DNA of 31,879 bases from a virus: positions 1 to 31,879 of the IMG/VR virus record IMGVR_UViG_3300042860_002328; one strand, given 5' to 3'. Below are positions 1,673-30,688 of the stretch, piece after piece. Made by a program: the position numbers and the translations under genes. The notes beneath the pieces were generated by a model. It ran no database searches, had not been told where the DNA came from, and was given only the letters and a program-made list of their open reading frames with translations. Position 1 is the first letter of the stretch; each line of letters begins with the position of its first letter.

Positions 1673-1673
1673 T

Positions 1674-3026: not shown

Positions 3027-3037
3027 CATGGTAGAAT
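3010..3037 (+). promoter_or_regulatory. sigma70-type promoter with CCGATA box
   Basis: TTGACA 3010-3015, 16-nt spacer containing CCGATA 4 nt after the -35, and TAGAAT 3032-3037. It overlaps the last codons of the ASCH gene and drives the genes from 3063. Confidence 0.75.
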
Positions 3038-3062
3038 ACAACCGTATCACCAAGGATTCGTT

Positions 3063-3804: not shown

Positions 3805-3992
3805 TGACTAAGATTTATGATGTTGTGCAGAAGAATAGCAAGTTTATTGTAACCAAGAATGGCGAGCCTATTTTGCTGCCTAAGAGTGATGGTCAGGCTA
3901 TTGTGACACAGTTTGATAGTAAGGAAGATGCTCAAAAGTATTTGAGTATTCTTGAGAGTCTTGTTAAGCGACGAGTTAAAACTCATTCTTAA
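3804..3992 (+). CDS. hypothetical protein, 62 aa
   Basis: A small basic protein: a strand-like N-terminus (IYDVVQKNSKFIVTKNGEPILL), then FDSKEDAQKYLSILESLVK, a helix that resembles the C-terminal helix of small DUF-type phage proteins. GGAG for the following gene lies just after its stop. Not assigned to a family. Confidence 0.65.
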   Translation: MTKIYDVVQKNSKFIVTKNGEPILLPKSDGQAIVTQFDSKEDAQKYLSILESLVKRRVKTHS

Positions 3993-4009
3993 TATTTGGA
4001 GAATAAACT

Positions 4010-4492
4010 ATGGGCATGGGTAGTTTTGCTGTTGGGAGTTTTGTTATTGAATATAAGAACTTGAAGAAAATTTGTCCTAATGAAATTAAATCTATTGAAC
4101 AAGCCAAGTATTTTAAGAATGTTGGTTGGGGGAGTGTTGGTCAATGGTTGGCATGGGATGACCCTGACCAAATTAAAGATGCTTTGTTTGACGCTGTGCT
4201 TGATGATAAGTCTAAGCCTGTTATTAGACTTGGATTGATGGCAGAAGAAATTGTTGAGGATATTTTTCAAGAATATGAAAAACTTGTGATTAATCTGAAG
4301 AATTCCTTTAACAAAAACACTGGATTGACTCTTTATTTTGACCACTATAACGAAGAAGATGGCGATAGGTATGATAACCCCGGCGACAAGGATGGTTGTA
4401 TCTTTTGTGTTGATGGTATGGTACAATTAACTCCTGCTGGGGAAAAGTTTAAGGATATTATCAGTGAAAGAAAGTGGACACAGTATGGGTGA
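4010..4492 (+). CDS. hypothetical protein, 160 aa
   Basis: GGAG at 3998-4001 gives a good start. A soluble protein with a Gly/Ser N-terminus, a helical middle (EEIVEDIFQEYEKLVINLKNS split by charged residues) and a DG-rich beta-like region before a basic tail. No catalytic signature is visible. Its size is above average for this cluster. Its 3' end overlaps the next gene by 8 nt. Confidence 0.7.
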   Translation: MGMGSFAVGSFVIEYKNLKKICPNEIKSIEQAKYFKNVGWGSVGQWLAWDDPDQIKDALFDAVLDDKSKPVIRLGLMAEEIVEDIFQEYEKLVINLKNSFNKNTGLTLYFDHYNEEDGDRYDNPGDKDGCIFCVDGMVQLTPAGEKFKDIISERKWTQYG

Positions 4493-4703
4493 GTATAACT
4501 GGATTAAAAATACTTTAGGTAGTATTGGTTGGTTTGTGGAAAGTTTTGGATATTCTGAAACTAAACTTCCATCTGATGCTTATCTAATTCCAGAAATGAG
4601 AATCAATAATATGTATCCATATACTTTTGAAAAAACTGTTCGTGTTACTCATTATAACAAACCAAAAAGGCGTGATCCTGCCAGAAAGGTTAATAGACGA
4701 TGA
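4485..4703 (+). CDS. hypothetical basic protein, 72 aa
   Basis: ATG 4485 is preferred over an in-frame GTG at 4464, since it gives a normal short overlap with the preceding stop. Trp/Phe-rich N-terminal half; the C-terminus is strongly basic (KPKRRDPARKVNRR), as in nucleic-acid-binding tails. Function unknown. Confidence 0.6.
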   Translation: MGEYNWIKNTLGSIGWFVESFGYSETKLPSDAYLIPEMRINNMYPYTFEKTVRVTHYNKPKRRDPARKVNRR

Positions 4704-5113
4704 TTAAACATTTTCCAGTTACTAATACGGATAAAGTTATTGAGCATTATTCAGAGAAGGACAATGTTCCTATCAGTTATGTTTGTACAACAGACTATAA
4801 TGCTAGTGATCGTCCTGTGGATATTTTCTATAGGAACTCTCCTCATCCAACATTTGGTAACAGATATTTTGGCATAGCGGTTAATTATGAAGATGGTTCT
4901 TATATTATTTTTAACGCTGATGGTATAGAAGATTTCTCTTTTGGGTTGGTAGAAGATGATGATGGAAATCTACAGTATAGTCAATATCATCACGATTATA
5001 AAAGTTTCGATAATGGTAATATGATTGATGGTGGACGAGACTATATCAGGCATGGTGGAAATGTAACAGTTTATACTATTCGTAATGGACAAATGGTGAA
5101 AGATGTATCGTAG
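4700..5113 (+). CDS. hypothetical acidic protein, 137 aa
   Basis: Coupled by ATGA to the gene before. Rich in Asp, Tyr, Asn and Gly with repeated strand-like segments (YFGIAVNYEDGSYIIFNADG), suggesting an all-beta soluble protein. No conserved catalytic residues recognised. The next gene starts within its last four codons. Confidence 0.65.
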   Translation: MIKHFPVTNTDKVIEHYSEKDNVPISYVCTTDYNASDRPVDIFYRNSPHPTFGNRYFGIAVNYEDGSYIIFNADGIEDFSFGLVEDDDGNLQYSQYHHDYKSFDNGNMIDGGRDYIRHGGNVTVYTIRNGQMVKDVS

Positions 5114-5822
5114 CAGATGGAATCATTGGAATTCTTCTAAAGTTGCTGATATTATTCGTGGCAGCAAAAAGCCCTTTGCTTTGGGGTGGAAAGAATGGGA
5201 CGTTTGGCACGAAGATGCTAAAAGAAAGCATCCATTGAGATATTATCTGGCGGAAAATGGATTGAAAACTCTACAAAATATTGCGTATTTTCCATATGAT
5301 GTTTATCATAATATTGAAGTTTATGTACGAAATCGTTGGATAGATAAGACTCATCTTATTAAGACCGGACTTAAACCGGGTCACTATTATGAGTTTGATA
5401 CCAAAATTCTTCATGGTCTTTTTAATGAACTTGTCGATTATGTTGAGACTGAAATCTCCCATACCATGAAGGATTATAAGGATAGAGACTACAAGTTTAA
5501 AAATGGTCGCTGTAAGCAAGCCGGATTAGATCATCTTGATTGGGCTATTGGGTTGACTTTTGGAAGTGACTATGGTATAAATGAGGACGATCCTGACTAC
5601 AACAAACCAACCCCACAAGCCATTACCGCTATGACTATTAAAGAGTTGTATTTGTGGTGGACAGAAACTCGCCCCAATCGACTTGACCCTCACTCTTTGT
5701 ATGACGAGCATAATAGAGCCGAAACTTTCGATAAAATTGATGAACTAGAAACAAAATATCATCAAGAAGATACTGATATGCTTATTAAACTTATTACAAT
5801 CAGACAAGATATATGGTGCTAA
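5103..5822 (+). CDS. conserved phage protein of unknown function, 239 aa
   Basis: I recall similar proteins in environmental and cyanophage-type genomes, typically with an ILHGLFNELVDYVE-like helix near the middle followed by a WA/GL and a TETRP..DP segment; both are present (about residues 101-114 and 198-206). Trp-, Tyr- and His-rich and soluble. The conserved Glu/Asp/His residues could be catalytic, but no named enzyme family fits. The gene ends directly against the next start. Confidence 0.7.
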   Translation: MYRSRWNHWNSSKVADIIRGSKKPFALGWKEWDVWHEDAKRKHPLRYYLAENGLKTLQNIAYFPYDVYHNIEVYVRNRWIDKTHLIKTGLKPGHYYEFDTKILHGLFNELVDYVETEISHTMKDYKDRDYKFKNGRCKQAGLDHLDWAIGLTFGSDYGINEDDPDYNKPTPQAITAMTIKELYLWWTETRPNRLDPHSLYDEHNRAETFDKIDELETKYHQEDTDMLIKLITIRQDIWC

Positions 5823-6272
5823 ATGGATCAAGAACTTCAAGATAAACTATTTGAAAAATATCCACAAATATTTATTAATAGGACTAAATCTCCTATGGAA
5901 TCGTGCATGAGTTGGGGATGCGAGGTCGGAAATGGCTGGTATGAATTGTTGTCCTCCCTTTGCTGGCGTATATTTCAACACGAAAAAAATATAGAGGACA
6001 AAAAAAGAATTTTAGCGGATCAACCAGAAAGAATCAAAGAAGAACTAGAGTATTTCCCTGTCAAGTTTGATCAAGTTAAAGAAAAGTATGGTGGATTACG
6101 AGTCTACTTTACTGGTGGCGATAATTATGTAGAAGGTGTTATTGGTATGGCAGAAGAATATAGTTACAAAGTTTGTGAAGTTTGTGGTAACTCTGGTAAA
6201 CCAAATAAAGGTGGATGGATAACTACTCTTTGTGATAGTTGTAGGAATAAAAGTGATGGAAGCAATTCTTAA
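5823..6272 (+). CDS. conserved phage zinc-ribbon protein, 149 aa
   Basis: The ATG follows the previous TAA without a gap. Matches a widespread phage hypothetical with three parts: MSWGCEVGNGWYEL near residue 28, a helical linker, then VKEKYGGLRVYFTGGD, and a terminal CEVCG...LCDSC pair (two CxxC-type knuckles) that probably binds zinc. The role is unknown in any phage I can name. The next gene begins inside its 3' end. Confidence 0.75.
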   Translation: MDQELQDKLFEKYPQIFINRTKSPMESCMSWGCEVGNGWYELLSSLCWRIFQHEKNIEDKKRILADQPERIKEELEYFPVKFDQVKEKYGGLRVYFTGGDNYVEGVIGMAEEYSYKVCEVCGNSGKPNKGGWITTLCDSCRNKSDGSNS

Positions 6273-6486
6273 ATTTAATCTTGATGAACCAGAAGATGTT
6301 ACATCTTTTGCTAGAGCAACTAAAGGTCAAGATTATTTTCTGGCTCTTTGGGATATTGGTGAACAATTGAGAAGTTGGGATAAGCATGGTCATTCTTTTA
6401 AGGATGCTGATGATGCTTTATCTCAAATACGAGAAGATTTTTACAGAGTTATGAACCATTTCAATATTAATTTAGATGAATCGTAA
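6256..6486 (+). CDS. conserved small phage protein, 76 aa
   Basis: Start at ATG 6256, with TAGGAA upstream, rather than an in-frame GTG at 6232. The sequence follows a very common small phage family: a short strand, F-N-L-D-E-P-E-D, then LALWDIGEQLRSWDKHG and a helix ending in a short acidic tail. Probably helical, soluble, function unknown. Overlaps its neighbours at both ends. Confidence 0.75.
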   Translation: MEAILKFNLDEPEDVTSFARATKGQDYFLALWDIGEQLRSWDKHGHSFKDADDALSQIREDFYRVMNHFNINLDES

Positions 6487-6724
6487 ACTATATATCAATA
6501 TGAATACATTATATTTTATAGCCCGATGCCTTTTAAGTGGCGGATTGTCTTGCATAACATCTATAGCGTGTTCACTAACTATTTTAGCACTATTAGCATC
6601 CTTAGTAGATGCTTTTAGATTAAATTACAAAGGAGATACTTATTGGGCTTTAAATGTTGCGTTGATTGGTTTGGTTATTAGTTGGATATTTAGTTTCGTT
6701 TCCTTTATGAGCATAATAAAATGA
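6476..6724 (+). CDS. small integral membrane protein, 82 aa
   Basis: Two to three predicted membrane spans: roughly residues 10-45 (a long Leu/Ile/Ala/Ser stretch, possibly two helices) and 58-80 (LNVALIGLVISWIFSFVSF). A short loop with charged residues lies between them. Not recognisable as a holin on sequence alone. A host-envelope role is possible but not shown. Confidence 0.65.
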   Translation: MNRKLYINMNTLYFIARCLLSGGLSCITSIACSLTILALLASLVDAFRLNYKGDTYWALNVALIGLVISWIFSFVSFMSIIK

Positions 6725-6912
6725 AAAAGAAAAGCAAAAAGAAATCTAAGCAAAAGATTGATGTTGTACTAGCATCACTACTTAATCTTGAACAAAAGAT
6801 GCGAGAACTAATTAAAACCGTAGAAAAACTACAACCTGATAAGGCACCAGAAAAGAAATACTGGCCGGTTGATTACCCAAAACCATTTTTTATCAAACAT
6901 GATAGTAACTAA
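6721..6912 (+). CDS. Lys-rich small coiled-coil protein, 63 aa
   Basis: ATGA overlap with the membrane-protein gene. Extremely basic first 12 residues, then a helical, Leu-heptad-like segment (residues 15-38) and a Pro-rich tail. It could bind nucleic acid or a membrane surface through the Lys run; no family is recognised. Confidence 0.6.
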   Translation: MKKKSKKKSKQKIDVVLASLLNLEQKMRELIKTVEKLQPDKAPEKKYWPVDYPKPFFIKHDSN

Positions 6913-7111
6913 ATTTTTCCATCCGTTTAATTTTGTGGGAATAAAAAAACCTAAACTGGATACAGAATGGCATCCAACAGATGATATTTATCATTATGGT
7001 TTTAGTTTGGACTTGACCACAGAAACTTATTACTATACATATGATTGGGGAATTGGATTCTCTTTTAGATTACTAGGATTCGGATTTGAGATAACAAAGG
7101 TGGGAATATGA
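6899..7111 (+). CDS. hypothetical aromatic-rich protein, 70 aa
   Basis: Start taken as ATG 6899 (14-nt overlap); an upstream non-ATG start at 6869 is less likely. Very rich in Phe, Tyr and Trp with repeated strand-like stretches (YYYTYDWGIGFSFRLLGFGFEI). This type of small beta protein recurs in phage genomes with no known role. Confidence 0.6.
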   Translation: MIVTKFFHPFNFVGIKKPKLDTEWHPTDDIYHYGFSLDLTTETYYYTYDWGIGFSFRLLGFGFEITKVGI

Positions 7112-7335
7112 AAAACAGATTTCATCTGGAAGAAGAAATTAATCATTTATATACTTTTTGTGATAATATGGAGAATCTAAGTGAAGGTATCTTAGAGCAA
7201 GGTTTAGATAAAGATGGTATTGTAAATGCTATCAATGGTTTAAAGGTATTATTGGCTATACAAACTTCTAAACTACAAGATACACTCAGTCAATGTTTTA
7301 AACTGGATCAATACAATGACAACGAAATTATATAA
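7108..7335 (+). CDS. hypothetical helical protein, 75 aa
   Basis: ATGA coupling. Almost entirely amphipathic helix, Leu/Ile/Asn rich, with two short Gly breaks. Likely oligomeric. No motif recognised. The paralogue-family gene at 7316 begins inside its 3' end. Confidence 0.6.
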   Translation: MKNRFHLEEEINHLYTFCDNMENLSEGILEQGLDKDGIVNAINGLKVLLAIQTSKLQDTLSQCFKLDQYNDNEII

Positions 7336-7534
7336 TCAAATTATGGATTTTGGAAATAGTGTGGGTGAGTATATTCGTATGGAGTACGAACCCATTTACT
7401 ATGAAGAATTCAATACTAAAAATCTGAATATGTTTGATTTTATTGGTAGTTATTATATGGGAGGTAGTAACGTACCAGATACGGCACGATATGTTGTTGA
7501 ACTTATTAAGATGAATAATAGAACAGAACATTAA
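7316..7534 (+). CDS. hypothetical protein, 72 aa; paralogue of the gene at 3063
   Basis: Shares with the product of 3063 the spaced segments Y-I-x-M-E-Y (residues 18-23) and Y-x-M-G-x-N-x4-A-x-Y-V, at similar relative positions. The middle of the protein differs. Two such copies 4 kb apart suggest duplication and divergence. Function unknown. Confidence 0.65.
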   Translation: MTTKLYNQIMDFGNSVGEYIRMEYEPIYYEEFNTKNLNMFDFIGSYYMGGSNVPDTARYVVELIKMNNRTEH

Positions 7535-7557
7535 TTACTTTATTTAAGGAGATAACT

Positions 7558-7848
7558 ATGAAAAATATAGCACGATGCTTGTTAGTAATATCAATGACAA
7601 TTGTATGTGGTAATATTTATGCTCAAGAGTGGATACCATATCAACTACAAAATCACGTTGTTCAAACTGCTGTAACTCAACAATCCTATGTTTATCAACC
7701 TCAACCAGTAGTTGTTTATCAATATGTTCCTTATGTTGTTAATCAACCAGTAGTTGTAGAACACAGATGTTTGCTTTATAGAACACAAAGAGTAGTATAT
7801 GTTCCTCAGACCCAATACTTTTATCAACCAGTAGTAGTATACCGATGA
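7558..7848 (+). CDS. secreted Tyr/Val/Pro/Gln-repeat protein, 96 aa
   Basis: AAGGAG 7 nt upstream fixes the start. Residues 1-22 are a classical signal peptide (Arg, hydrophobic core, small residues to NIYA) with likely cleavage before QEW. The mature part is low complexity: QPVVVYQ, NQPVVVEH and YQPVVVYR repeats separated by YVP/YV stretches and one Cys. Such repeats are frequent in secreted Planctomycetes proteins, so the gene may be host-derived, but this is recollection only. It may act in the periplasm or at the cell surface. Confidence 0.7.
   Translation: MKNIARCLLVISMTIVCGNIYAQEWIPYQLQNHVVQTAVTQQSYVYQPQPVVVYQYVPYVVNQPVVVEHRCLLYRTQRVVYVPQTQYFYQPVVVYR
7702..7837 (+). repeat. three short direct repeats encoding QPVVV
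   Basis: CAACCAGTAGT begins at 7702, 7744 and 7825 inside the secreted-protein gene, spaced 42 and 81 nt (both multiples of three). Each encodes Q-P-V-V/V. They look like internal coding repeats that can expand or contract in frame. Confidence 0.7.
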
Positions 7849-8165
7849 AACCAGACCTAGAACAAGATTTATTTGCTAATTCAACCATAAAAGATAAGTG
7901 TAAATATAGCAAAGTTTATAGCCAAAATTTATATGCGGCTATGTGTAATAATCGTTTTTTTTATGGTGAAAACGAATGGACTTGTTCGTGGAGAATGAGT
8001 GGTGAAATAGTAGCAGACCTTAGAGATTGTGGGGAGGATTATCTGAACTACTACTGTTCTGGTATGATTAATCTTGATGGTTCTGTTAGTGAAAGTGTTG
8101 TAACAGATGAAATAGCATTAGACTTAGCCAAAATAGGGTGGATCGTTAAACCTTATGAAAAATAA
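7845..8165 (+). CDS. conserved small phage protein, 106 aa
   Basis: ATGA overlap with the secreted-protein gene. Matches a common environmental-phage family: an N-terminal D/K region, then YAAMCNN..F......W.CSWR.SG.IVADLR..GEDYLNYYCSG, and a C-terminal VTDEI..DL.KIGW. The conserved Cys/Trp residues suggest a compact fold, possibly metal-binding. Function unknown. Confidence 0.75.
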   Translation: MKPDLEQDLFANSTIKDKCKYSKVYSQNLYAAMCNNRFFYGENEWTCSWRMSGEIVADLRDCGEDYLNYYCSGMINLDGSVSESVVTDEIALDLAKIGWIVKPYEK

Positions 8166-8271
8166 TGAAACAACTCCACCAATTTTAGGATCAGTTATTA
8201 ATGATGGTGAAAATGCTCCATTTGCCGATTTATATTATGATACTTTTCCAGAATGGTACGATGTAGAATGA
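8155..8271 (+). CDS. hypothetical micro-protein, 38 aa
   Basis: ATG 8155 lies in the end of the previous gene and the frame runs to TGA 8269-8271, where it overlaps the next ATG (ATGA). Acidic, with Pro and Tyr residues and an FPEWYDVE ending. Support is the double overlap; no family recognised. Confidence 0.5.
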   Translation: MKNNETTPPILGSVINDGENAPFADLYYDTFPEWYDVE

Positions 8272-8471
8272 CATTTGAAGAATTTTTAAAGTTGGTTGAT
8301 CAAACATATAATACTTTTAACTGGCGTTATGGTCAGTGTGTGATGAATGTTTTACACTCTGTTGATAAAATTAAATATGAAAATCTACTAGCCACAGAAA
8401 ACGATTGCTACTATGATGATAGTATGGTACGCATCACTCTAGATAAATTAAAAACAGAATGGAAAACTTAG
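8268..8471 (+). CDS. conserved small phage protein, 67 aa
   Basis: Start at ATG 8268 (ATGA overlap), not the in-frame codon at 8253. Matches a recurrent phage family: MTFEEFLKLVD, then WRYGQCVMNVLH, and a DCYYDD segment near residue 50. Likely a small helical protein. Role unknown. Confidence 0.75.
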   Translation: MTFEEFLKLVDQTYNTFNWRYGQCVMNVLHSVDKIKYENLLATENDCYYDDSMVRITLDKLKTEWKT

Positions 8472-8968
8472 GTTTAAAGTTTTTTGATAACTATATATCA
8501 GAAAATGAAGAACAACTTATAATATCTGATATTGAAAATTTTCGACAAAATAATCCAAAGTTAGTTGCTAACTATGGCAGTAGTAACTTTGATAGTATAT
8601 ATTTTGGGGACAGATATAAAAAGGGTATAGACGATGTACCATCAAGTATTGTAAATATCTACAAAAAACTTATTAGTGATGATTTAATCATTGATATACC
8701 TTTCGGCATAGCAATTAACAAGTACCAAAAAGGACAAAAAATAGCAGCACATATTGATAAACCGATAAGTGGGCCAATCGTTAGCATATTAAGTTTAGGT
8801 TATTCATCAACAATGGTATTTAAGAAAAAAAACTCAGACGATATAGTTCAGGAATTATATCCAAAAAGTTTAGTACAAATGAAAGACGAAATAAGAAATG
8901 AATGGACTCATGAAATTCTGCCAGTTAAAAATTTAAGATATTCTATAGTATTTAGATCATTACAATGA
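8459..8968 (+). CDS. AlkB-like 2-oxoglutarate/Fe(II) dioxygenase
   Basis: Shows the complete AlkB-family signature: H98-x-D100 for iron (AAHIDKP), a beta-barrel segment GPIVSILSLGYSSTMVF, H151 as third iron ligand, and R160-x5-R166 for 2-oxoglutarate. The length of 169 aa is that of compact phage and plant-virus AlkB domains. AlkB enzymes remove alkyl groups from DNA or RNA bases by oxidative demethylation. Substrate choice (DNA or RNA, and which lesion) cannot be read here. It starts inside the previous gene and ends coupled by ATGATG to the next. Confidence 0.85.
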   Translation: MENLGLKFFDNYISENEEQLIISDIENFRQNNPKLVANYGSSNFDSIYFGDRYKKGIDDVPSSIVNIYKKLISDDLIIDIPFGIAINKYQKGQKIAAHIDKPISGPIVSILSLGYSSTMVFKKKNSDDIVQELYPKSLVQMKDEIRNEWTHEILPVKNLRYSIVFRSLQ

Positions 8969-9162
8969 TGGATATAGATGATTATATCAATAAATTGAAT
9001 ATCGAAATTGAACACCTAAAAAGTGTTAATAAATCATTGCGTAATGAAATACGAATTCAAAGGTACGAAATAGCAGAATATAAAGACACAATCAATACTC
9101 TTTTAAATTGGGATAAACCACCAGAACACAATAAAGAAATGGATTTAAATGATAACAATTAA
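8965..9162 (+). CDS. small coiled-coil protein, 65 aa
   Basis: Starts on the ATG overlapping the AlkB-like gene stop. Residues 5-48 form a continuous charged heptad pattern (Ile/Leu at a/d positions), so a coiled-coil dimer is likely; the tail is Asp/Asn-rich. Many phages carry such short coiled-coil proteins before larger enzymes. Function unknown. Confidence 0.6.
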   Translation: MMDIDDYINKLNIEIEHLKSVNKSLRNEIRIQRYEIAEYKDTINTLLNWDKPPEHNKEMDLNDNN

Positions 9163-9769
9163 ACCACAACCATACAATAGCGTTTGGGTTAGTGCTGATT
9201 CTCAAGAAGAATTAGGATTAACATTTATGCGTTTTCAAGAATACTACGAAAGCACCAATCCAAATTTTCGTAATAATATTTTTACGGTTGGACAACTTAG
9301 ACATTGGTATAGTGAAACATACGGAGCAAATAATTATCAATCGACATGGATTGGTTTTAACTTCCCTAGTAAAGTATTGATTCCTTTCAAAGAAGGGCTA
9401 TTCGATCCACTAACAATAGAGGAAAGTAGACTATTGGATCTTTTACGATACAGACAAGATGACTTCTATATTATAGGTGCTCAAACAAAAAGCACATTAC
9501 GTCATGAGTTATCTCATGCTCTATATGCTAGTAATGCTAAATATAGAAAAGAAATTGATAATTTTGTTACCAAACATAAAAAGAAATTACAAAAAACTAT
9601 ACAATATATGATAGAAAAGGGCTATCATAAAGATGTTATTAATGATGAATTACAAGCATATATAACAGATAATGATGATACAGATATTATCAATAATACT
9701 TGTCCTTTCGTGATCGCTGGTATCAATCAAATCTTCAATAAATATAATGAGGCTAAGATTAAGAAATGA
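9149..9769 (+). CDS. putative zinc metallopeptidase-like protein (HExxH)
   Basis: Contains H119-E-L-S-H123 inside a helix (STLRHELSHALY), the zincin zinc-binding and catalytic motif, and an acidic E167 (NDELQAYI) about 44 residues on that could be the third ligand, as in gluzincins. The N-terminal 100 residues (WYSETYG, GFNFPSKVLIPF) look like a phage-specific domain. No signal peptide is present, so it probably acts in the cytoplasm. Similar phage proteins are usually annotated only as hypothetical, and proteolytic activity is inferred from the motif alone. Confidence 0.65.
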   Translation: MITIKPQPYNSVWVSADSQEELGLTFMRFQEYYESTNPNFRNNIFTVGQLRHWYSETYGANNYQSTWIGFNFPSKVLIPFKEGLFDPLTIEESRLLDLLRYRQDDFYIIGAQTKSTLRHELSHALYASNAKYRKEIDNFVTKHKKKLQKTIQYMIEKGYHKDVINDELQAYITDNDDTDIINNTCPFVIAGINQIFNKYNEAKIKK

Positions 9770-9948
9770 ACGATCAAGATTTATGTGATGAGGAAAAAAG
9801 TTACCATGAGTGGGTAGCAAAAAACATTCCATTTATCAGAAATAACAAGGATTGCGTCAAAGTAATGCAACAACTTTATGTTGCTGGATTTGCTGCTGGG
9901 TTTGTTCATAGAGATAAAATTAATGCGGAGGAACAATTACAAAAATGA
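9766..9948 (+). CDS. hypothetical protein, 60 aa
   Basis: ATGA-coupled to the metallopeptidase-like gene. Acidic N-terminus then a helical segment (VMQQLYVAGFAAGFVHRDK) with an A/G-rich centre; a common small-phage-protein appearance. GCGGAGG near its end serves the next gene. Not recognised further. Confidence 0.65.
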   Translation: MNDQDLCDEEKSYHEWVAKNIPFIRNNKDCVKVMQQLYVAGFAAGFVHRDKINAEEQLQK

Positions 9949-10211
9949 GTTGGGATGGTAATTTTAAATATGAGCCTATGCGACCAGCAAAAGTTCAACA
10001 AATAATGGAAGCGTATAAAAACGAACAAGTATATGATTATATCATGGAATTATATGAATTAATCAACTATCAAAAGCAAATAATTAATGAGCAACGAGTA
10101 GAGATTATAGGTTTGAAACATAAAGAAGCATGGAAAAGATATGATTTGCCAGAACAATCATTTAAGGTTGACATTGACAAACCGCCGAAATCTGGTAATA
10201 TGAGTTGCTAG
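9945..10211 (+). CDS. hypothetical protein, 88 aa
   Basis: ATGA overlap. The middle (residues 20-60) is a long amphipathic helix, likely a coiled coil; the C-terminus is Pro/Lys-rich and ends in Cys. The start has GGAGG about 13 nt upstream. No family recognised. Confidence 0.6.
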   Translation: MSWDGNFKYEPMRPAKVQQIMEAYKNEQVYDYIMELYELINYQKQIINEQRVEIIGLKHKEAWKRYDLPEQSFKVDIDKPPKSGNMSC

Positions 10212-10220
10212 GAGGATACT

Positions 10221-10451
10221 ATGCTTTGGAGTGAAGTTAAAAGATGGGCTAAAGATAAAGGCTATGAAACCATTAAAGATAAGGGAGATGAAGAAAATGG
10301 TGATAAAGTCCAATATTATTGGAGCAAAATAGATAATCCATCTTCTAGTGGCGTTAGTTCTAGCGTTAGTAAACTCGCTAGAGATATTTATAATGACATT
10401 ACTAATGGAGAATGGATAGAATATCAAACATCATATAAGGAATCACACTAG
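10221..10451 (+). CDS. conserved small phage protein, 76 aa
   Basis: Strong AGGAGG Shine-Dalgarno 7 nt upstream. Belongs to a recurrent environmental-phage family: MLWSEVKRWAKDKGYE, then YYWSKIDNP, then GVSSSVSKLARDIYNDITNG.WIEYQ. Predicted small alpha/beta fold. Function unknown. It immediately precedes thyX, with no gap between stop and start. Confidence 0.75.
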   Translation: MLWSEVKRWAKDKGYETIKDKGDEENGDKVQYYWSKIDNPSSSGVSSSVSKLARDIYNDITNGEWIEYQTSYKESH

Positions 10452-11108
10452 ATGAATGTAAAATTAATTAGCGTAACTCCAGAAGCAGAAAAAACTATAG
10501 CGTATTGTGCTAGAGTGTCCAACCCAAACAATCAAGATCAAGATAATTACGCGAGACTACTCAAATATTGCATTGAACACAAACATTGGAGTATTTTTGA
10601 GCATGGTTTTATGACTCTGGAAATCAATACAACAAGAGGACTTGCTGCTCAAATACTAAGACATAGAAGTTTTACTTTTCAAGAATTTAGTCAGCGTTAT
10701 GCAGACACGACTCTTTTAGCAGAAGAAATTCCCATATTTGAACTGCGGCGTCAAGATACTAAAAATAGACAAAATAGTATAGATGATATAGATCAAGAAA
10801 TAGTTTTTAAATGGAATAGTAAACTACGCGAACATTTTGCCAAAAGTAAGGCCATTTACGATGGTATGATAAAAGATGGAATAGCAAAAGAATGTGCTAG
10901 ATTTGTATTGCCACTAGCAACACCAACAAGACTTTATATGAGCGGTAATATACGGAATTGGATTCATTATATAGAATTGCGTTCTTCAAATGGTACACAA
11001 AAAGAACATATGAGCATAGCCAACAATTGTAAAGAAATTTTTATTGAACAGTTTCCTATTATTAGTGAGGCTTTAGCATGGGAAAACAAACCAAAGTTCA
11101 AAAATTAA
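10452..11108 (+). CDS. thyX: flavin-dependent thymidylate synthase ThyX
   Basis: Carries the ThyX signature RHR-x7-S exactly (R70-H71-R72 to S80, followed by QRY). At 218 aa it is normal for the family. ThyX makes dTMP from dUMP using methylene-tetrahydrofolate and FAD/NADPH, unlike the host ThyA-type enzyme, and commonly supplies thymidine for phage replication. Later conserved parts are present: ARFVLPLATPT, MSGNIRNWIHYIELR and HMSIA. Tightly coupled to neighbours with no promoter of its own; the next gene starts inside its 3' end. Confidence 0.93.
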   Translation: MNVKLISVTPEAEKTIAYCARVSNPNNQDQDNYARLLKYCIEHKHWSIFEHGFMTLEINTTRGLAAQILRHRSFTFQEFSQRYADTTLLAEEIPIFELRRQDTKNRQNSIDDIDQEIVFKWNSKLREHFAKSKAIYDGMIKDGIAKECARFVLPLATPTRLYMSGNIRNWIHYIELRSSNGTQKEHMSIANNCKEIFIEQFPIISEALAWENKPKFKN

Positions 11109-11470
11109 ATTCTTGGGAAAAGGCAAAAGAACTGAATATTATAAGAAGTTCTCCTTGCGGTTTATATTGTAATGAAATATTAGACAAAGGAGTAAATTAT
11201 TTTATACTTGCTTTAGAGTATATGGGTTGTATTACACAATATAGTTGTGAAGGACATTTTGGACAAAAAAATAAAGTACCACAATTTTACATATCTTTTA
11301 AAGTGCCAAACAGAAACATTATTAAACAGTTACGAGACATATTAACGCCACAGTGTCAATTAGAATACGATAAACACAATGAGTATGTTTTAAGAATTGA
11401 TTTTCAAAACCAAAAACAAAAAATAAAAATTTTATCAGAATTATCAGCGAGGTTCGATAATATATTATGA
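11078..11470 (+). CDS. conserved phage protein with CEGHF motif, 130 aa
   Basis: Starts inside the thyX 3' end (31-nt overlap) after GTGAGG. It has a G-C-I-T-x-Y-S-C-E-G-H-F stretch around residues 50-61, seen in a set of uncharacterised phage proteins. The Cys/His residues could bind metal or a cofactor. The C-terminus is helical. Function unknown. Confidence 0.7.
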   Translation: MGKQTKVQKLNSWEKAKELNIIRSSPCGLYCNEILDKGVNYFILALEYMGCITQYSCEGHFGQKNKVPQFYISFKVPNRNIIKQLRDILTPQCQLEYDKHNEYVLRIDFQNQKQKIKILSELSARFDNIL

Positions 11471-11652
11471 ATAAGCAGTTTAATATAACCGCTCAAATTT
11501 ATGAGATATCAGATCCTACCAAACAAACCATACTTATCAATGATCTGGTTTTTGCTCAATCAGAAGAAAAAGCCTTAATTGATTTTTATAATGGCATAAA
11601 TCCAAATTATACTGTTATGAAAATATATTCAGTTGAAGAAATTAATATTTAA
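11467..11652 (+). CDS. hypothetical protein, 61 aa
   Basis: ATGA-coupled. A small soluble protein with two strand-like stretches, QTILINDLVFAQS and YTVMKIYSVEEI. Comparable to many short phage ORFs lacking known function. The Shine-Dalgarno of the next gene (AAAGGAAA) follows its stop. Confidence 0.6.
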   Translation: MNKQFNITAQIYEISDPTKQTILINDLVFAQSEEKALIDFYNGINPNYTVMKIYSVEEINI

Positions 11653-11674
11653 TCATTAATCAAAGGAAATTACT

Positions 11675-12154
11675 ATGAACACACCAACAGAAGAAGAAAA
11701 TAAACTTTATGAATCCGCTTTATCTGATTTAGAAAAAAAACAAAAAGATAAAGAACTTGCATTTATGAATGGCAAACAAGTAGAGATCGACTATTTTCAT
11801 ACGCTTGAGACTTCTAAATCTAGTAATAAAAATATCTTCTTGTTATTTTATATGGATGGTTGTCCCGGTTGTACAGTCATCAAGTATCTAATCAACTATA
11901 ATTCAGAGATACAAGAAATTTTGAAGGATTATGAAGTTTTACTTATTAATATGAGCAAAACTGTTACACAATTATCCAATAAATACAATATATATACTTA
12001 TCCATCCTACTTCATTATAGATGGATCAGAAAATATATTAAAGAAAAATACTGGCTGTTTTACCAAGGGTGGTGCAGATAATAACCTAATAAACTGGTTT
12101 AAATTAAAAATTAACCCGCCCCAGCCTCAAACAAAAAGTTCATGCAGCACTTGA
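11675..12154 (+). CDS. thioredoxin-like protein, 159 aa
   Basis: Contains C63-P-G-C66 in a FYMDGCPGC context after a hydrophobic strand, and a cis-Pro segment Y-T-Y-P110-S-Y-F, both hallmarks of the thioredoxin fold. The N-terminal 45 residues are a charged helix, and the C-terminus ends in SSCST. It could reduce disulfides or supply electrons, for instance to a phage ribonucleotide reductase outside the window. CPGC is not the thioredoxin CGPC, so the redox partner is uncertain. The downstream promoter overlaps its last codons. Confidence 0.8.
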   Translation: MNTPTEEENKLYESALSDLEKKQKDKELAFMNGKQVEIDYFHTLETSKSSNKNIFLLFYMDGCPGCTVIKYLINYNSEIQEILKDYEVLLINMSKTVTQLSNKYNIYTYPSYFIIDGSENILKKNTGCFTKGGADNNLINWFKLKINPPQPQTKSSCST

Positions 12155-12178
12155 CAAAAACCGATAGTATGATATACT
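12151..12178 (+). promoter_or_regulatory. sigma70-type promoter with CCGATA box
   Basis: TTGACA 12151-12156, 16-nt spacer with CCGATA beginning 4 nt after the -35, TATACT 12173-12178. Overlaps the stop of the thioredoxin-like gene. GGAGG of uvsE follows at 12186-12190. Confidence 0.85.
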
Positions 12179-12194
12179 CTCAGTTGGAGGTCAT

Positions 12195-13109
12195 ATGAAC
12201 AGATTCGGTCTTTGTTGTATTTCTCTTAAACTTAAAGATCAAGGTATTTGTCATAAAACCATGACCTTTAAAAGATTTAATTCTTTACCAAGAGAAGAAG
12301 CATTGGCTATTCTTGGAGAAAGAATTCTTAATAATCTTGTAACAACAAATGAAACAATCAAATTTTGCGGTAGTAATAACTATACTTATAGAGTTAGTAG
12401 TGATATTTTTCCTCTCATTACTTATGACGAGGCTAATGTCTCATTAGAGGATTTACCCAATCATGAAGATATTCAAGATGAGTTTGATAATATCGCACAA
12501 ACTATTTCCACTACTGGCGTTCGTGTTAGTTGTCATCCTAGCGAGTTTAATTCGCTATCAAGTCTCTCCGATAAGGTGGTCGAGAAAACAATCACAGAAC
12601 TCAACTTCTACAGTAGTTTCTTCGACAGAATTGGATTACCGGCAGATACTAATTCGCCCATGAATCTTCATGTTCATAATAATAATGGAACCAGAGAAGA
12701 AATCTCTCATAGATTTTACTCAAACTTCATTCGGTTAGATGAAAATTGTCAGAAGCGTATGACTATCGAGAACGATGATAAACTAAATTGCTGGAGCGTG
12801 AAAGAACTGGTTGATATTTTTCATCCTATTACCCGCATACCAATCTGTTTTGATTATCTGCATCACAAGTGCCATTCTAATAATCTCACAGAACGTGAAG
12901 CGATTAATATGTGTTATGATACATGGCAAACTAAACCATTATTTCATTATAGTGAAAGTCGAGAGGGTAATAATCCTCGTGCTCATGCTGAGTATGCTTA
13001 TAATAAGTTTGAGACTTATGGTTTAGAATTTGACATAGATATGGAACTTAAAGGTAAAGATTTGGCTATCGAAAAATATGAACAAATTATCAGTGGGGTA
13101 TTGGTATGA
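12195..13109 (+). CDS. uvsE: UV damage endonuclease UvsE/UVDE
   Basis: TIM-barrel metal-dependent endonuclease that nicks DNA 5' of cyclobutane dimers and 6-4 photoproducts. The family order is visible: N-terminal RFGLCCIS, then VRVSCHPSEF (H114), MNLHVH (H159, H161), TIENDD (E192), CFDYLHH (D220, H223/H224) and LFHYSES (a further His). These are the family's metal ligands. At 304 aa it is a full-length bacterial/phage-type UVDE. It has its own promoter and a strong GGAGG, so it is probably well expressed. A role in sunlight survival is an inference. Confidence 0.92.
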   Translation: MNRFGLCCISLKLKDQGICHKTMTFKRFNSLPREEALAILGERILNNLVTTNETIKFCGSNNYTYRVSSDIFPLITYDEANVSLEDLPNHEDIQDEFDNIAQTISTTGVRVSCHPSEFNSLSSLSDKVVEKTITELNFYSSFFDRIGLPADTNSPMNLHVHNNNGTREEISHRFYSNFIRLDENCQKRMTIENDDKLNCWSVKELVDIFHPITRIPICFDYLHHKCHSNNLTEREAINMCYDTWQTKPLFHYSESREGNNPRAHAEYAYNKFETYGLEFDIDMELKGKDLAIEKYEQIISGVLV

Positions 13110-16771: not shown

Positions 16772-16779
16772 AGAAATAT

Positions 16780-16853
16780 GGGGCGTTGCCGCCGGTAGTG
16801 GCACACACTCTTATAAGGTGTTCAAAAGGTAGGTTCGACTCCTACACGCCCTA
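16780..16853 (+). tRNA. tRNA-Ile (anticodon UAU)
   Basis: Cloverleaf of 74 nt. Acceptor GGGGCGT (16780-16786) pairs with ACGCCCT (16846-16852) with a G-U at pair 1; D arm GCC/GGC; anticodon stem 16805-16809/16817-16821 with loop CTTATAA, anticodon TAT at 16812-16814; T arm GTAGG-TTCGACT-CCTAC. Discriminator A16853; CCA is not encoded. UAU reads AUA, an isoleucine codon frequent in the weakly biased genes here and often rare in hosts. The variable loop is slightly long (7 nt). Confidence 0.85.
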
Positions 16854-16882
16854 TTGGTTTAATTTTTTAAATAAGGAGATTT

Positions 16883-17119: not shown

Positions 17120-17474
17120 GGGGGCGTAAAGGTTTCGACTACATAAAGACGATTATATTGGCAAGTAGTGGTTGGTGGAAAGGCCACTCTAAAAATCTAC
17201 CAAATGCTTTAACTGGCACAAATCAGTTAGCCCTTGCTGCCTAATAAAAAACGGCAGTAACAGACTGCGATACCGAATGAGGGTAGGGATCAAAAGTCTG
17301 TCGTTAAATCCCTCTGCACTTACAATATCCAACGGGTTGTAGGTTAAGAGCAGTTGGTAAGATAGGATTAGTCTTGTTTATTCTGTACTCCTATTTAACT
17401 CATGAATAAAATAAACTTGTAGATAATGTAATTTGAAGTATGATAGGACGGGGATTCGACTTCCCCCGCCTCCA
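17120..17474 (+). ncRNA. ssrA: transfer-messenger RNA (tmRNA)
   Basis: One-piece tmRNA of about 355 nt. The tRNA-like domain is closed by 17120-17126 (GGGGGCG) with 17467-17473 (CGCCTCC); T arm GGGGA-TTCGACT-TCCCC at 17450-17466; discriminator A17474. CCA is not encoded. The tag reading frame ends GCC CTT GCT GCC TAA TAA (17230-17247), i.e. A-L-A-A, the ending seen by host ClpXP. Upstream codons give ALTGTNQL. The resume codon is either GCT 17206 (tag ALTGTNQLALAA) or AAT 17203 (one Asn longer). Canonical double stop. No own promoter is seen; it is likely processed from the tRNA-Ile transcript. It needs SmpB, not seen here. Confidence 0.92.
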
Positions 17475-17481
17475 CTTTATC

Positions 17482-25784: not shown

Positions 25785-25826
25785 ACGCTAATCACAGGTC
25801 GATAACGAAACATATTGGAGAAGAAA

Positions 25827-28496
25827 ATGAAGTTGGCAGACAGGACGGTTGAGACTCATAGTGCTGGTGTTAAGAGCGAAGCAGGATTCACTATCGCCCA
25901 AACCAGTAAAATGTTTAAGATTTTGTCAGACTCTCTTTATTCTGACAAGGTGATGGCAGTTGTTCGTGAATTGTCCACCAATGCTTATGATAGTCATATT
26001 GCTGCTGGCAATAAGAATCCTTTTAAGGTGGTGTTGCCTAGTGCTGGTAATCCTAATTTTGTAGTGCGTGATTATGGTACTGGTCTTAGTCAGACCGATA
26101 TGGAGAACCTGTATACAACTTATGGTGCTAGTAACAAGAATACTAGTAACGATTTTGTTGGTTGTCTTGGTCTAGGTTCTAAGAGTCCGTTTGCATATAC
26201 CAAGAGTTTTACTACCAGTTCTTATTATAACGGACAAAAGTATACTTATGTTGCCGCTATTGATGATAGTGGTGTTCCTACTCTGAATCTTTTTAGTGTC
26301 AGCGAAACCGACGAGCCTAATGGTCTTGAGATTAGTTTTGCTGTAAAGCAGTATGACTTTGCTGAATTTAGCAGCAAGTCTATGCGTATTTTCCACTATT
26401 TTAAGATGAAGCCCATTATCGAAGGTGGTGTTCTAACTAATCTAAAAGATCATAAATATAGCAACAAGAATATCGTCTTGAGCGGTGATGGCTGGAGAGT
26501 TTGTCGCCTGAACAATGATACTAATTATTATCCTAATGTTCATCATCATATTGATAGTGGCATTGTTGCATTGATGGGTAATATCGCATATCCTGTTAAG
26601 ACTAGTCAGATTATTGGTGATGAAAAGCAAACAACTAATGATGCTATTCAGCGTTGGAATCGTGCTTTTCAAAAAGCCGATATTGATAGTTGGAAAAGTT
26701 TTGTTGTTGAAATCATTAATCAAAACCTTTACCTTGAACTTGATTTTGGTATTGGCGAATTGGAAATGGATGTTTCCAGAGAAGGTTTGCAGTATACCAA
26801 AGATGTAATCAGAACCTTGCGTGAAAAGACTCAAGAGATTTATCTTGAGATGAAGGAAGAATTTAGCAAGAAAATCGCTGCCGCAAAAACCAAGGTAGAA
26901 GCAATTACGCTTTATTATACCCTTAACGATCTTGCTGGTGGTTGGGGAGTTGGTGCTGAATGGACTGATAGCAAGGGTAAGAAGCACAATATTAATTCTG
27001 GACAGGATCTAGAATATAAGATTCCTGCCGGAAAGAGTATGTACGTTTTTAATTATCGTACTGCTGGCTATCGTTCTCGTCGCATGGTTTATCAGACAAA
27101 TAGTATTCATCATAATACTCTTACTGGTCAAGGCGAATATTATTGGAATAATCAGAAAAAGACAGGAGAACTGTCATTCTTTGTTTGCGATATTAAAACA
27201 GAAGAAACAGCAAAGAAGATCGTTACTAGATATTGCAATGATAATAATTGCTTTGCATACCTAATGATTGATACTAAGGATCATACCAAAGCAGATGAAG
27301 GTTTTGATAGTCTAATTGCTGATGTTGGTGCTGACAAAATCAAGAAGGTTTCTGACTACAAAGATTTGATTAAGAGTAATAATCCTCGTAAGCAAAGTAG
27401 TCGATCCTCTAATGGTGCTGTTAGCGACCAAGATGTATTTTTCATCTATGGAGAATCTAAGGATAGCGGTAAAATTAGCAATCCTTATAACGACGCTCCT
27501 TGTCTCAGGGTTTTGACAGAAGATGAATTGGAGGCTTTTGAAGATAGTGATGAGATTATTTATGTTCCAATCATTCGCTATGCTAGTGCTTCTAATGAAT
27601 ATCCGTCAATTTCTGATTTGAACCTAATGATAAACGATGTTACTGCAACATCACTAGTCAAGGATTTGTTTGGATCTAATAAGATTTATGCTATCAAAAG
27701 TGCTTTTGTCGATAAACTCAAGAAACAGGGTTATACTCTGATCGACTTTAATACTTTCTTCAAGAAACAACTCAAAAGAGTTGCCAAAGATAGTCTGAGC
27801 AAGTTGTCAGAATACAATGGTATTGTTGAATTTAGCAGAACTCAGGACAATTATTCTGCTAAGAATAGCGACACTTACTATGGATATGGCACTCTGGAAA
27901 AGCAATTTACTTTTCATATGCTTAATATTTTTGGTTTGGACTATGAGAAACATATTAGTAATAAGAAACTGGTTGATGCTATCAATTATTGTCTAATTAT
28001 TGAGTTCTTTGTTGATACTGTTCATCGTCCTTCTTTTGATATTAAGCGATTCAAGGCGGCCGATTATTTTGGTCATATGACCAGACTATTAAGTGATATT
28101 GGGATCAATGGTCTTGATAGTCAGAAGGTTCGTAATAGTAATATTGCGTACAATTCTTTAGTATCTTATATTCAGAGTAGAATGTATATTCACAATGAAG
28201 ATATGATGAAGGAGTGTATTGCTATTATTAAGCCAGATGTTTCAAAGAAATATAATCTTGCCAAAATGGAAGATGTTAGAAAAGATATTAAAGCCGAACT
28301 TGACAACAATCCCGTTTTGAAGTATATTGTTGGTAGTCGTGCCGTGTCTGGCGAACTAAGAGAACTATCTGGTTCAAATGAACCGATTAAACAACTTGAT
28401 GACAGGCATTACTACAGCGGTAATACTAAAACATGGTTAACAAGTCTAAATGATGTGGAAGCATTTAGAAAGCAAATTGGTAGTTTGGTTAAGTAA
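25827..28496 (+). CDS. rIIA: rIIA-like protein with GHKL ATPase domain
   Basis: Start ATG 25827, with GGAGAA upstream; a TTG at 25815 is less likely. The N-terminal 200 residues have the GHKL/HATPase motifs: E48-L-S-T-N52-A-Y-D, RDYGTGL (D82, G84, G86), then GCLGLGSKSPFAYTKSF. That is the order of phage rIIA proteins, which protect against lambda-prophage exclusion and affect lysis timing in T4. At 889 aa it is longer than T4 rIIA (725). Its strong promoter and host-like codon use imply abundant expression. It is followed by rIIB, which shares the transcript. Biochemical role unknown. Confidence 0.9.
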   Translation: MKLADRTVETHSAGVKSEAGFTIAQTSKMFKILSDSLYSDKVMAVVRELSTNAYDSHIAAGNKNPFKVVLPSAGNPNFVVRDYGTGLSQTDMENLYTTYGASNKNTSNDFVGCLGLGSKSPFAYTKSFTTSSYYNGQKYTYVAAIDDSGVPTLNLFSVSETDEPNGLEISFAVKQYDFAEFSSKSMRIFHYFKMKPIIEGGVLTNLKDHKYSNKNIVLSGDGWRVCRLNNDTNYYPNVHHHIDSGIVALMGNIAYPVKTSQIIGDEKQTTNDAIQRWNRAFQKADIDSWKSFVVEIINQNLYLELDFGIGELEMDVSREGLQYTKDVIRTLREKTQEIYLEMKEEFSKKIAAAKTKVEAITLYYTLNDLAGGWGVGAEWTDSKGKKHNINSGQDLEYKIPAGKSMYVFNYRTAGYRSRRMVYQTNSIHHNTLTGQGEYYWNNQKKTGELSFFVCDIKTEETAKKIVTRYCNDNNCFAYLMIDTKDHTKADEGFDSLIADVGADKIKKVSDYKDLIKSNNPRKQSSRSSNGAVSDQDVFFIYGESKDSGKISNPYNDAPCLRVLTEDELEAFEDSDEIIYVPIIRYASASNEYPSISDLNLMINDVTATSLVKDLFGSNKIYAIKSAFVDKLKKQGYTLIDFNTFFKKQLKRVAKDSLSKLSEYNGIVEFSRTQDNYSAKNSDTYYGYGTLEKQFTFHMLNIFGLDYEKHISNKKLVDAINYCLIIEFFVDTVHRPSFDIKRFKAADYFGHMTRLLSDIGINGLDSQKVRNSNIAYNSLVSYIQSRMYIHNEDMMKECIAIIKPDVSKKYNLAKMEDVRKDIKAELDNNPVLKYIVGSRAVSGELRELSGSNEPIKQLDDRHYYSGNTKTWLTSLNDVEAFRKQIGSLVK

Positions 28497-28522: not shown

Positions 28523-29395
28523 ATGGCTGTTCCGTTTATGTTTGTTGATGGTAATTTGACGCTGGTTCTTAATAACCAGAGTTATCAGGTTTTGCCGGAT
28601 CATATTAATTACAAGATGATTCTTGAGCGTTTGCCAACAGCGACCGCTGATGAATTGCTTGAGATTGTTGATATTCAAAAGGCAGTCGCAGTATTTAGCG
28701 ATGGTCTTGTGGATATTAAGGAAGGTAAGGTATTCTATGATGGCGACGAAGTTCATGGTAGTATCAGTAAAAGAATTCTTGAGTTTATGAGCAAGGGTCT
28801 GCCATTTCAGCCTCTCGTTAACTTCCTGAATAATCTTATGGATAATCCTAGTATGCAGAGTCAGCAGGAACTTTATGATTTCCTTGAGCATGAACATCTG
28901 CCAATTACTGAGGATGGATGCTTTCTAGCATATAAGGCTGTTCGTAGTGATTATATGGATAAGTATGCTGGAAAGTTTCGTAACAAGGTTGGTGATATTT
29001 GTAAGATGACCCGATCAAAGGTTGATGATAATCGTGGTCGCGGTTGTTCTCAGGGACTTCATGCTGGTGCATTAAATTATGTTGCTGGTTACGGCAGCGT
29101 TGATGCTGGTGATCGTATCGTTATTGTGAAGATTAATCCTTGTGACGTTGTTAGCGTTCCTAGTGATTGTAATTGTGAGAAACTTCGTACTTGCCAATAT
29201 GAAGTTGTTGGAGAGTATCAAGGCGAACTTCTCAAGCCGCTTTATTCGTCTAACTTTGCTGAAGATGACTATAATGATGATGAGGACGATTATGATCATG
29301 AGTATAGTTGGGCATGGAATGATGACGAAGAAGATGTAGATGAAGATTACTATGCTGATGATGAAGATGAGGATGATTACGACGATCAGTATTGA
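28523..29395 (+). CDS. rIIB: rIIB-like protein
   Basis: 26 nt after rIIA, with AGGAG and no promoter: a two-gene operon, as in T4. The C-terminal half carries the rIIB-type block: FLEHEHLPITEDGCFLAYK (residues 121-139), RNKVGDICKM, RGCSQGLHAGALNYVAGYG, then VVSVPSDCNCEKLR and YEVVGEY. At 290 aa it is near T4 rIIB (312 aa). The C-terminal 45 residues are almost entirely Asp/Glu/Tyr. It probably acts with rIIA in exclusion resistance and lysis control. An 8-bp stem-loop overlaps the stop codon. Confidence 0.9.
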   Translation: MAVPFMFVDGNLTLVLNNQSYQVLPDHINYKMILERLPTATADELLEIVDIQKAVAVFSDGLVDIKEGKVFYDGDEVHGSISKRILEFMSKGLPFQPLVNFLNNLMDNPSMQSQQELYDFLEHEHLPITEDGCFLAYKAVRSDYMDKYAGKFRNKVGDICKMTRSKVDDNRGRGCSQGLHAGALNYVAGYGSVDAGDRIVIVKINPCDVVSVPSDCNCEKLRTCQYEVVGEYQGELLKPLYSSNFAEDDYNDDEDDYDHEYSWAWNDDEEDVDEDYYADDEDEDDYDDQY

Positions 29396-29406: not shown

Positions 29407-29494
29407 AAAGTAGAGTCTGGTGACTAAGATAATAGCCTCTGGTTGGGAAACTCGACAAACGCTATTTGAGAGGGTTCGACTCCCTCCTACTTTC
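29407..29494 (+). ncRNA. tRNA-like RNA with an abnormal anticodon arm
   Basis: Acceptor AAAGTAG (29407-29413) pairs with CTACTTT (29487-29493), and a perfect T arm GAGGG-TTCGACT-CCCTC abuts it (29470-29486); these are canonical. A short D-like stem (416-418/427-429) is possible. Where the anticodon arm should be, AATAGC 29431-29436 pairs with GCTATT 29461-29466 around a 24-nt loop that itself holds GTTG/CGAC (29442-29456). No anticodon can be assigned. It could be a tRNA with an insertion or a tRNA-mimic. Found in the gap between rIIB and the primase-like gene. Confidence 0.6.
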
Positions 29495-29563
29495 TGGATA
29501 TTGCTAATGATGGTAATGTTTGCTGTTCCAATATCAATTCACAGGATAATGTAAGGAAGTTGT

Positions 29564-30688
29564 ATGTTTAATGATAATATTGGTTTTAACCCTTTTGATA
29601 AGAATAATAGCGTTAATGCTAATGGATACGCTTCTAAAAGAGTTAAGTTTTTGAGTTCTTTTAACCAACAGCATATCTATGTTTATAATGGTAATCCTCG
29701 TAAAAAGATTAGTAGCATGAATCATACTACTGATATTGGTGAGGTAATCAGTGCCAACATAAACAACGATTCTGACGCTTACTTTTATATTAATGGTGGT
29801 CGTAAAATTTATGCAATCAAACAGTTTACTTGTTGCTTTTGCGATATGGATGCTGGTCGTGATGAGCAGGGCAAATACTTTAAGCCTAGCATTGTTATGA
29901 ATAAGAAAAAGCAGTTCCTAAAGAAGATCAACGAGTTCCCTGTTAAACCTAGTTGGGTAGTAGATACTCGTAATGGTTATCAGTGCTACTGGATTTTTGA
30001 TAATGCTAGTCGTAAAATGATTGGGTCTAACAAAACCTTCTGGAGCGGTCTGCAAAAGAAGTTAGTCAATTATTTTGGTGGAGATCCAAGAGCAATTAAA
30101 CCTAATCAGATTTATAGAATTCCTTATACTTGGTGGCGTAAAGGATGGGAAAAGAAGCAACCATACTTTACCAGTTTGCTGCCCGGTAGTGATGGTGCTA
30201 CAGTTAATGTTGCAGATTTAAAGTCCGCTCTTACTGGTCAACCAGCAAACCTACAAATAGTTCCAGAAAAATGCAGCGACGAATGGTATAAGGGATATGC
30301 TAAGGCTTATAAGCAGTCTGATGAAAGCGGCATCCCAGTATCATCAAATGTTGCATCAGAAATACTGAATGACATTCAAGAAAAAAAGAAATGGTCTAAT
30401 CTAAGTAAGTGTTCAACTATTCTCAATGATATCTATGATGATAACGACGAGAATGTTGAGGTTGCTCATGGTGAACCCATGCCAGTGTCGAAGGGTTGCT
30501 GTAACGCTACTGTTGACTCTGGTGACGAGGATATAAACCTTGATGGGTCGCAGACCAAACTTTTAAAAACCGTTGTGGAGTTCCTTAATCAAGTCAGCAC
30601 CCCGCTGTATTTTAGTAACAATAGATTCCTATCTAGTGCTGCTAAAGACTTGGCAAATCAACTCAGTGACAAATTTTGCATTGGATAA
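29564..30688 (+). CDS. archaeo-eukaryotic primase (AEP)-like protein, 374 aa
   Basis: AAGGAAG upstream. Motif order resembles RepB/PrimPol-type AEP domains: I, C-D94-M-D96-A-G; II, SWVVDTRNGYQCYWIFD (130-146; N-G-Y-Q-x-Y-W); III, GGDPRAIKPNQIYRIPYTWWRKG (172-194; R-I-P, K). These are the metal-binding Asp pair, the substrate loop and the conserved basic region. The C-terminal 150 residues are a helical/charged extension, with no helicase P-loop seen. If active it would make primers for phage DNA replication. Enzyme class is confident, activity not tested. Confidence 0.7.
   Translation: MFNDNIGFNPFDKNNSVNANGYASKRVKFLSSFNQQHIYVYNGNPRKKISSMNHTTDIGEVISANINNDSDAYFYINGGRKIYAIKQFTCCFCDMDAGRDEQGKYFKPSIVMNKKKQFLKKINEFPVKPSWVVDTRNGYQCYWIFDNASRKMIGSNKTFWSGLQKKLVNYFGGDPRAIKPNQIYRIPYTWWRKGWEKKQPYFTSLLPGSDGATVNVADLKSALTGQPANLQIVPEKCSDEWYKGYAKAYKQSDESGIPVSSNVASEILNDIQEKKKWSNLSKCSTILNDIYDDNDENVEVAHGEPMPVSKGCCNATVDSGDEDINLDGSQTKLLKTVVEFLNQVSTPLYFSNNRFLSSAAKDLANQLSDKFCIG

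Follow-up and report, generated by a model that had tools for sequence, protein, structure and literature searches.

The window, the whole 31,879-nucleotide stretch of viral DNA analysed here (IMG/VR record IMGVR_UViG_3300042860_002328), carries a conserved tRNA-like element at positions 29407–29494, on the coding strand and directly downstream of the phage gene rIIB. Comparison with related phages confirms that the element is real, and we propose, with a probability of roughly 0.6, that it is a cis-acting tRNA mimic that acts as a cut site separating the rIIB mRNA from the message of the next gene. The element keeps the features that tRNA-processing enzymes need, while the features needed for translation are lost. 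The coordinates of its parts and of the neighbouring features are collected in Table 1.

Table 1. Features of the window at and around the tRNA-like element, and its tmRNA.
Feature	Position	Strand	Description
rIIA gene	25815–28496		Encoded in the window
rIIB gene	28523–29395	+	ORF; stop TGA at 29393–29395; PHROG 609 RIIB, E 2.7e-71
Acceptor stem, 5′ strand	29407–29413	+	AAAGTAG; from fold; pairs with CTACTTT at 29487–29493 (7 bp); double changes at 7/7 pairs
D-like hairpin	29414–29425	+	AGTC-TGGT-GACT; 4-bp stem, loop UGGU; minimum-energy fold and comparative
Arm at anticodon position	29431–29466	+	Stem 29431–29436/29461–29466; loop 29437–29460 with inner hairpin
T arm	29470–29486	+	GAGGG-TTCGACT-CCCTC; 5-bp stem, loop TTCGACT; Rfam, fold and covariation
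Acceptor stem, 3′ strand, and discriminator position	29487–29494	+	CTACTTT, then C 29494 at the discriminator position; CCA not encoded
Hairpin RNA H2	29497–29535	+	Second conserved hairpin; precedes the 374-aa gene and occurs where this gene comes next
Downstream gene	29564–30688	+	374 aa; same orientation as rIIB; absent here in many relatives
tmRNA	17120–17475		True phage tmRNA; tag GTNQLALAA; separate from the element

The element begins 11 bases past the rIIB stop codon and is composed of an 87-nt structure followed by a single C. The minimum-energy fold of 29407–29494 is exactly the structure in Table 1, in which the acceptor stem and T arm are those that the initial annotation had described as normal, and in which the arm it had placed at the anticodon position is also present, with a 6-bp stem (AATAGC/GCTATT) closing a 24-nt loop that contains a small hairpin. 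The D-like hairpin had not been spelled out in that annotation. The 7-bp acceptor, the 5-bp T stem and the TTCRA T loop are those of a tRNA, whereas the 24-nt loop takes the place of the 5-bp anticodon stem, 7-nt loop and assignable, conserved anticodon that a tRNA would have. The earlier statement that no anticodon can be assigned also stands, since ARAGORN calls no tRNA at the rIIB-downstream site in the window or in its relatives and the anticodon region is not conserved among them; no overlooked standard cloverleaf with a 7-nt loop was found. Applied to the short stretch, the Rfam tRNA model (RF00005) matches 29407–29494 with 30.7 bits against a gathering threshold of 29, and the alignment has 20 nt inserted where the anticodon would be. 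The element was not listed in an Rfam scan of the whole window at the gathering threshold with fast filters, the filters being the probable cause, and a BLAST search of the element against cultured phages gave no match. The folding energy is unremarkable (z of −1.21, with 23 of 200 shuffles equally good; mean z of −1.5 over 50 variants) and was dropped as a proof of structure. Several candidate assignments were also discarded: the D stem GUCU/AGAU given by cmscan, because only AGUC/GACU covaries (to CCGC/GCGG); the anticodons AAA and CUG forced within the 24-nt loop, which are not conserved; and CCTCT as a partner of the T-stem strand AGAGG, a pairing lost where the T stem becomes GAAGG.

A search of the viral collection with the window's rIIB gave 378 relatives, of which the best 80 were fetched. 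Three of these 80 contigs do not extend past the stop codon and were left out; in all 77 loci of this set that extend past the stop, a tRNA-like element lies 3′ of rIIB. When these rIIB relatives were pooled with loci from a pattern search, 109 loci, some of them sharing contigs, gave 50 distinct elements. The distance from stop codon to element in the relatives is usually 3–30 nt and the total element length 47–89 nt. The T stems are paired at every position in 50 of 50 variants, and acceptor positions 4–6 are likewise paired in all 50, with up to five pair types and with no conserved identity pair in the acceptor stem. The chosen acceptor strand directly abuts the D hairpin in 45 of the 50, and the acceptor and T stems add up to exactly 7 + 5 = 12 layers in 38 of the 50. 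The T-loop motif TTCGA and the D-loop motif UGG are invariant in the parsed family, an invariance that is partly by construction because the parser sought both motifs.

Covariation was measured in an alignment of 27 cores (A1) from which the variable region had been taken out. In the stems, 96.5% of cells are paired against 72.0 ± 1.4% after shuffling, the raw pairing values being somewhat inflated because the parser took the best-pairing acceptor; cells with double changes number 98 against 31.8, and the covariation score is 0.66 against 0.195, with 0 of 500 shuffles reaching the observed value in each case. As a slid control, moving the partners by 1–3 columns left only 40–56% pairing. Compensated D stems include AGTC/GACT, CCGC/GCGG and GTT/AAC. 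The initial annotation had held that its reading would fall if related phages did not conserve the pairs; the acceptor, D and T pairs are all kept through compensatory changes. This covariation, together with a position that stays the same across about 100 related contigs, is the evidence against a chance structure. In one relative (L102), rIIB and the element are separated by a gene that has CxxC/HNH-like motifs, and one genome-collection match is a Chitinophagia MAG contig, possibly a binned viral contig, which was not adopted as indicating the host.

The anticodon region spans 4–44 nt among the variants and is unrelated in sequence between relatives, being formed by a 40–44 nt arm, by short hairpins (L053, L064, L125) or by only 4–6 nt (L060, L063, L076). 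Within the subfamily of 21 variants that have the window's type of arm, the 6-bp arm covaries (AATAGC/GCTATT, CATAGC/GCTATG, AATAGT/ACTATT), and the inner hairpin of the 24-nt loop is replaced wholesale. A region that ranges so widely, from 44 nt down to hardly any sequence, makes decoding an unlikely function, and equally unlikely are two of the three explanations offered initially, a mini-intron and a decoy for anticodon nucleases. An intron would be flanked by exons of a normal anticodon loop, but in relatives the place is taken by a 24-nt loop or a short hairpin, or the arm is missing altogether (L063, L060), and the swapped inserts lack common splice-like borders; the Rfam scan of the element stretch also gave no match to group I or other intron families. 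The nuclease decoy is disfavoured because the loop that would be the target is dispensable in relatives. The length of 88 nt does equal that of a class II tRNA, as had been pointed out, but the agreement is coincidental given the range of lengths in the relatives.

A processing signal in the rIIB transcript, the third of the initial explanations, is the best fit, with cleavage itself predicted from the fold and its position. Farther out, in 33 rIIB loci that are 32–61% identical, the same spot is mostly occupied by a hairpin and a T run, with terminator-like hairpins, judged by eye, in ~21 of the 33 and likewise in L139; four further loci of this search carry a tRNA-like element. The sequences at this spot suggest a shared role in 3′-end formation. 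Relatives without the 374-aa gene have the next start codon 5–28 nt past the element, a spacing seen in about half of the variants (5 nt in L025, L027, L031 and L045; 8 nt in L035, L039 and L069). A separate promoter would thus find hardly any space in the gap, or none, and the folded element would crowd initiation at the next gene. A processing signal would fit an element that sits where 3′ ends are formed in relatives and yet must be transcribed through for the next gene to be expressed, two properties that a terminator would not reconcile. Hairpin H2 has a 7-bp outer stem, a bulge with ATGA, an inner hairpin and CCC, and its outer stem varies with compensation (ATTG/CAAT, GCCG/CGGC, ATCG/CGAT).

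The proposed mechanism predicts that a read-through transcript runs from rIIB into the next gene and carries the tRNA mimic at the border between the two. The mimic would offer RNase P and RNase Z what they measure, the stack of acceptor and T arm together with the D/T elbow. Host tRNA-processing enzymes (RNase P and/or RNase Z) would then cleave the message next to the element, on one side or on both, which would free the 3′ end of the rIIAB mRNA about 10 nt past the stop codon and give the message of the next gene a new 5′ end; the structure of the element, its conservation, its position and its strand are observed, whereas the cleavage, the enzyme responsible and the effect on expression are inferred. 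RNase P has been shown to measure the acceptor/T-stem stack from the elbow and to accept any RNA presenting that stack (PMC4919913), which the 12 layers of 38 of the 50 variants reproduce, and its non-tRNA substrates include tRNA-like RNAs, phage RNAs and mRNAs (PMC11143913). Counted against a processing signal are several weak variants: the additional elements in L019 and L093, each with a single T-stem mismatch, and the D hairpins of L076 and L060, which are atypical or tiny. The lack of an encoded CCA, which aids bacterial RNase P, also counts against it, as does the unexplained restriction of the element to rIIB in this clade. The element is generally single copy per genome there, and a T-arm search of the contigs of 20 relatives, for which most of the matching places were inspected, gave mainly true tRNAs and tmRNAs as its other matches. 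In one genome (that of L020; L193, 395–481) a second tRNA-like element lies between two genes, directly followed by a U run and ATG.

The search for the D/T pattern also matched elements in other phages, usually without an anticodon arm. One uncultured 31.7-kb virus (L082/L181) has about 12 minimal elements preceding successive genes; those of L181 span 704–12900, are mostly 43–49 nt long, and are composed of an acceptor, a TGGT or GTGGC D segment and a T arm. Every one of them has a short hairpin behind it, after which ATG usually comes next. In L082 an HNH-like gene lies between two elements. A relative of Streptomyces phages (L183) has nine elements between consecutive genes, Streptomyces phages (L183, L188, L189) carry about ten minimal elements per genome, and in the stretches examined of the cultured Streptomyces phages Sitrop and Caliburn, 19 of 19 such T arms are intergenic and on the coding strand. 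The 5-bp acceptors of Sitrop and Caliburn are mostly compensated (GGGTG/CACCC, GGGAG/CTCCC, GCGTG/CACGC, GCCTG/CAGGC). The minimal elements of L183, L189 and L181 matched no Rfam family at E 0.1. Three T arms combined in one tandem or nested tRNA-like element were additionally observed at L118 (about 145–285), L130 and L131, in a phage tRNA cluster or alone.

The rIIB elements and those of other phages are likely convergent. We give about even odds to the wider proposal that unrelated phages have repeatedly evolved a general punctuation of their long mRNAs from the top half of a tRNA, cut by host RNase P or RNase Z, with rIIB as the single-copy case. If true, tRNA mimics without a decoding part would offer phages a simple route for shaping polycistronic mRNA, and dsDNA phages would have a gene-expression strategy paralleling mitochondrial tRNA punctuation. 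It would likewise account for odd tRNA annotations in some phages, among them the tRNA-Arg of Sitrop, which overlaps one minimal element, and with about ten copies each the cultured Streptomyces phages make the proposal directly testable.

Mitochondrial tRNA punctuation is textbook knowledge, and individual instances of RNase P cleavage are known from mRNAs of bacteria and phages. A literature search of partial coverage returned no report of tRNA-like punctuation in phages, and the concept appears to be a variant of t-elements and tRNA punctuation that is new in phages. The tRNA-like domain of tmRNA has an acceptor, a T arm, UGG in the D region and another structure in place of the anticodon arm; unlike tmRNA, the element has neither a peptide reading frame nor a conserved alanine identity pair. 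Plant mitochondrial t-elements are tRNA-like structures at mRNA borders that serve as endonuclease-recognised intergenic cleavage sites (PMC8003010). The element resembles these, and mitochondrial tRNA punctuation, in that a tRNA-like fold occupies an mRNA junction and lies on the coding strand, but t-elements are found in organelles, whereas the element belongs to dsDNA phages and combines a strict pair of D hairpin and T loop with a free anticodon region. Bacterial RNase P substrates such as tmRNA, 4.5S RNA, phage M3 and C4 RNAs, T4 gene 32 mRNA and polycistronic mRNAs likewise share the acceptor/T-stem stack or a tRNA-like fold (PMC4919913, PMC11143913); these are individual cases, whereas the element is a conserved family at one gene junction, with predicted cleavage. 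The bacterial Y RNA YrlA does not decode either and likewise has a D, a T and an acceptor arm, but it is a free RNA that tethers Rsr and PNPase and whose own 5′ and 3′ ends form a large stem (PMC8394870). The element has no such Rsr-binding stem of paired ends; its ends pair into an acceptor stem of tRNA type that adjoins the T arm, and it sits at an mRNA junction.

The main rival explanation is that the element remains on the message as a lasting tRNA-like tail, formed by an RNase Z cut and CCA addition, that blocks 3′ exonucleases. Plant-virus tRNA-like structures shield RNA from such exonucleases, and a protective role would suit the position directly past the stop codon, the terminator-like hairpins at the same place in distant relatives, the retention of elbow and acceptor with a free anticodon region, and the phage's own tRNAs, which likewise lack CCA. 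We regard a protective tail, with its presumed CCA addition, as unlikely, since the arrays put elements between many genes, where a cut would be needed anyway. It is quite unlikely that the element is an intrinsic terminator whose hairpin resembles a T arm by chance: the window has only TTT followed by CTGG, termination would not conserve the D hairpin and T-loop sequence, and the close spacing of the next genes in many relatives leaves no room for a promoter, even though a terminator-like pattern is called at 29470–29486, T runs follow the acceptor in many relatives and distant rIIB phages have terminator-like hairpins here. The elements of Sitrop and Caliburn are mostly followed by A-C-Y and not by a U run, and are therefore not intrinsic terminators. 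A trans-acting decoy or sponge, which would bind a tRNA-targeting host defence or a tRNA enzyme through elbow and acceptor, is very unlikely given the fixed cis position after rIIB, the generally single copy per genome in this clade and the placement of each element at a gene junction in the arrays elsewhere; the invariant elbow features would suit such a role, and competitive inhibition has been proposed for the tRNA-like domain of YrlA (PMC7790460). The last reading, that a tRNA gene has decayed here or that a host tRNA was copied into an attP, recalls the tRNA-like gene of halovirus HF2, which is interpreted as an attP (PMC8707807). It is exceedingly improbable, given that each stem shows compensation on both of its strands, that one locus is conserved in about 100 contigs and that no integrase was found among the ten window proteins scanned.

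Additional features were observed elsewhere in the window and in its relatives. A ferredoxin-like phage gene (18201–18902, PHROG 3704) lies near the tmRNA. A tRNA-Ile(UAU) at 16779–16854, conserved in relatives, has an unusual D arm and is called by ARAGORN and not by Rfam at the gathering threshold. In two relatives (L191, 316–507; L192, 712–907) a group I intron (RF00028) is positioned in the anticodon loop of tRNA-Leu(UAA), presumably at the site known from cyanobacteria.
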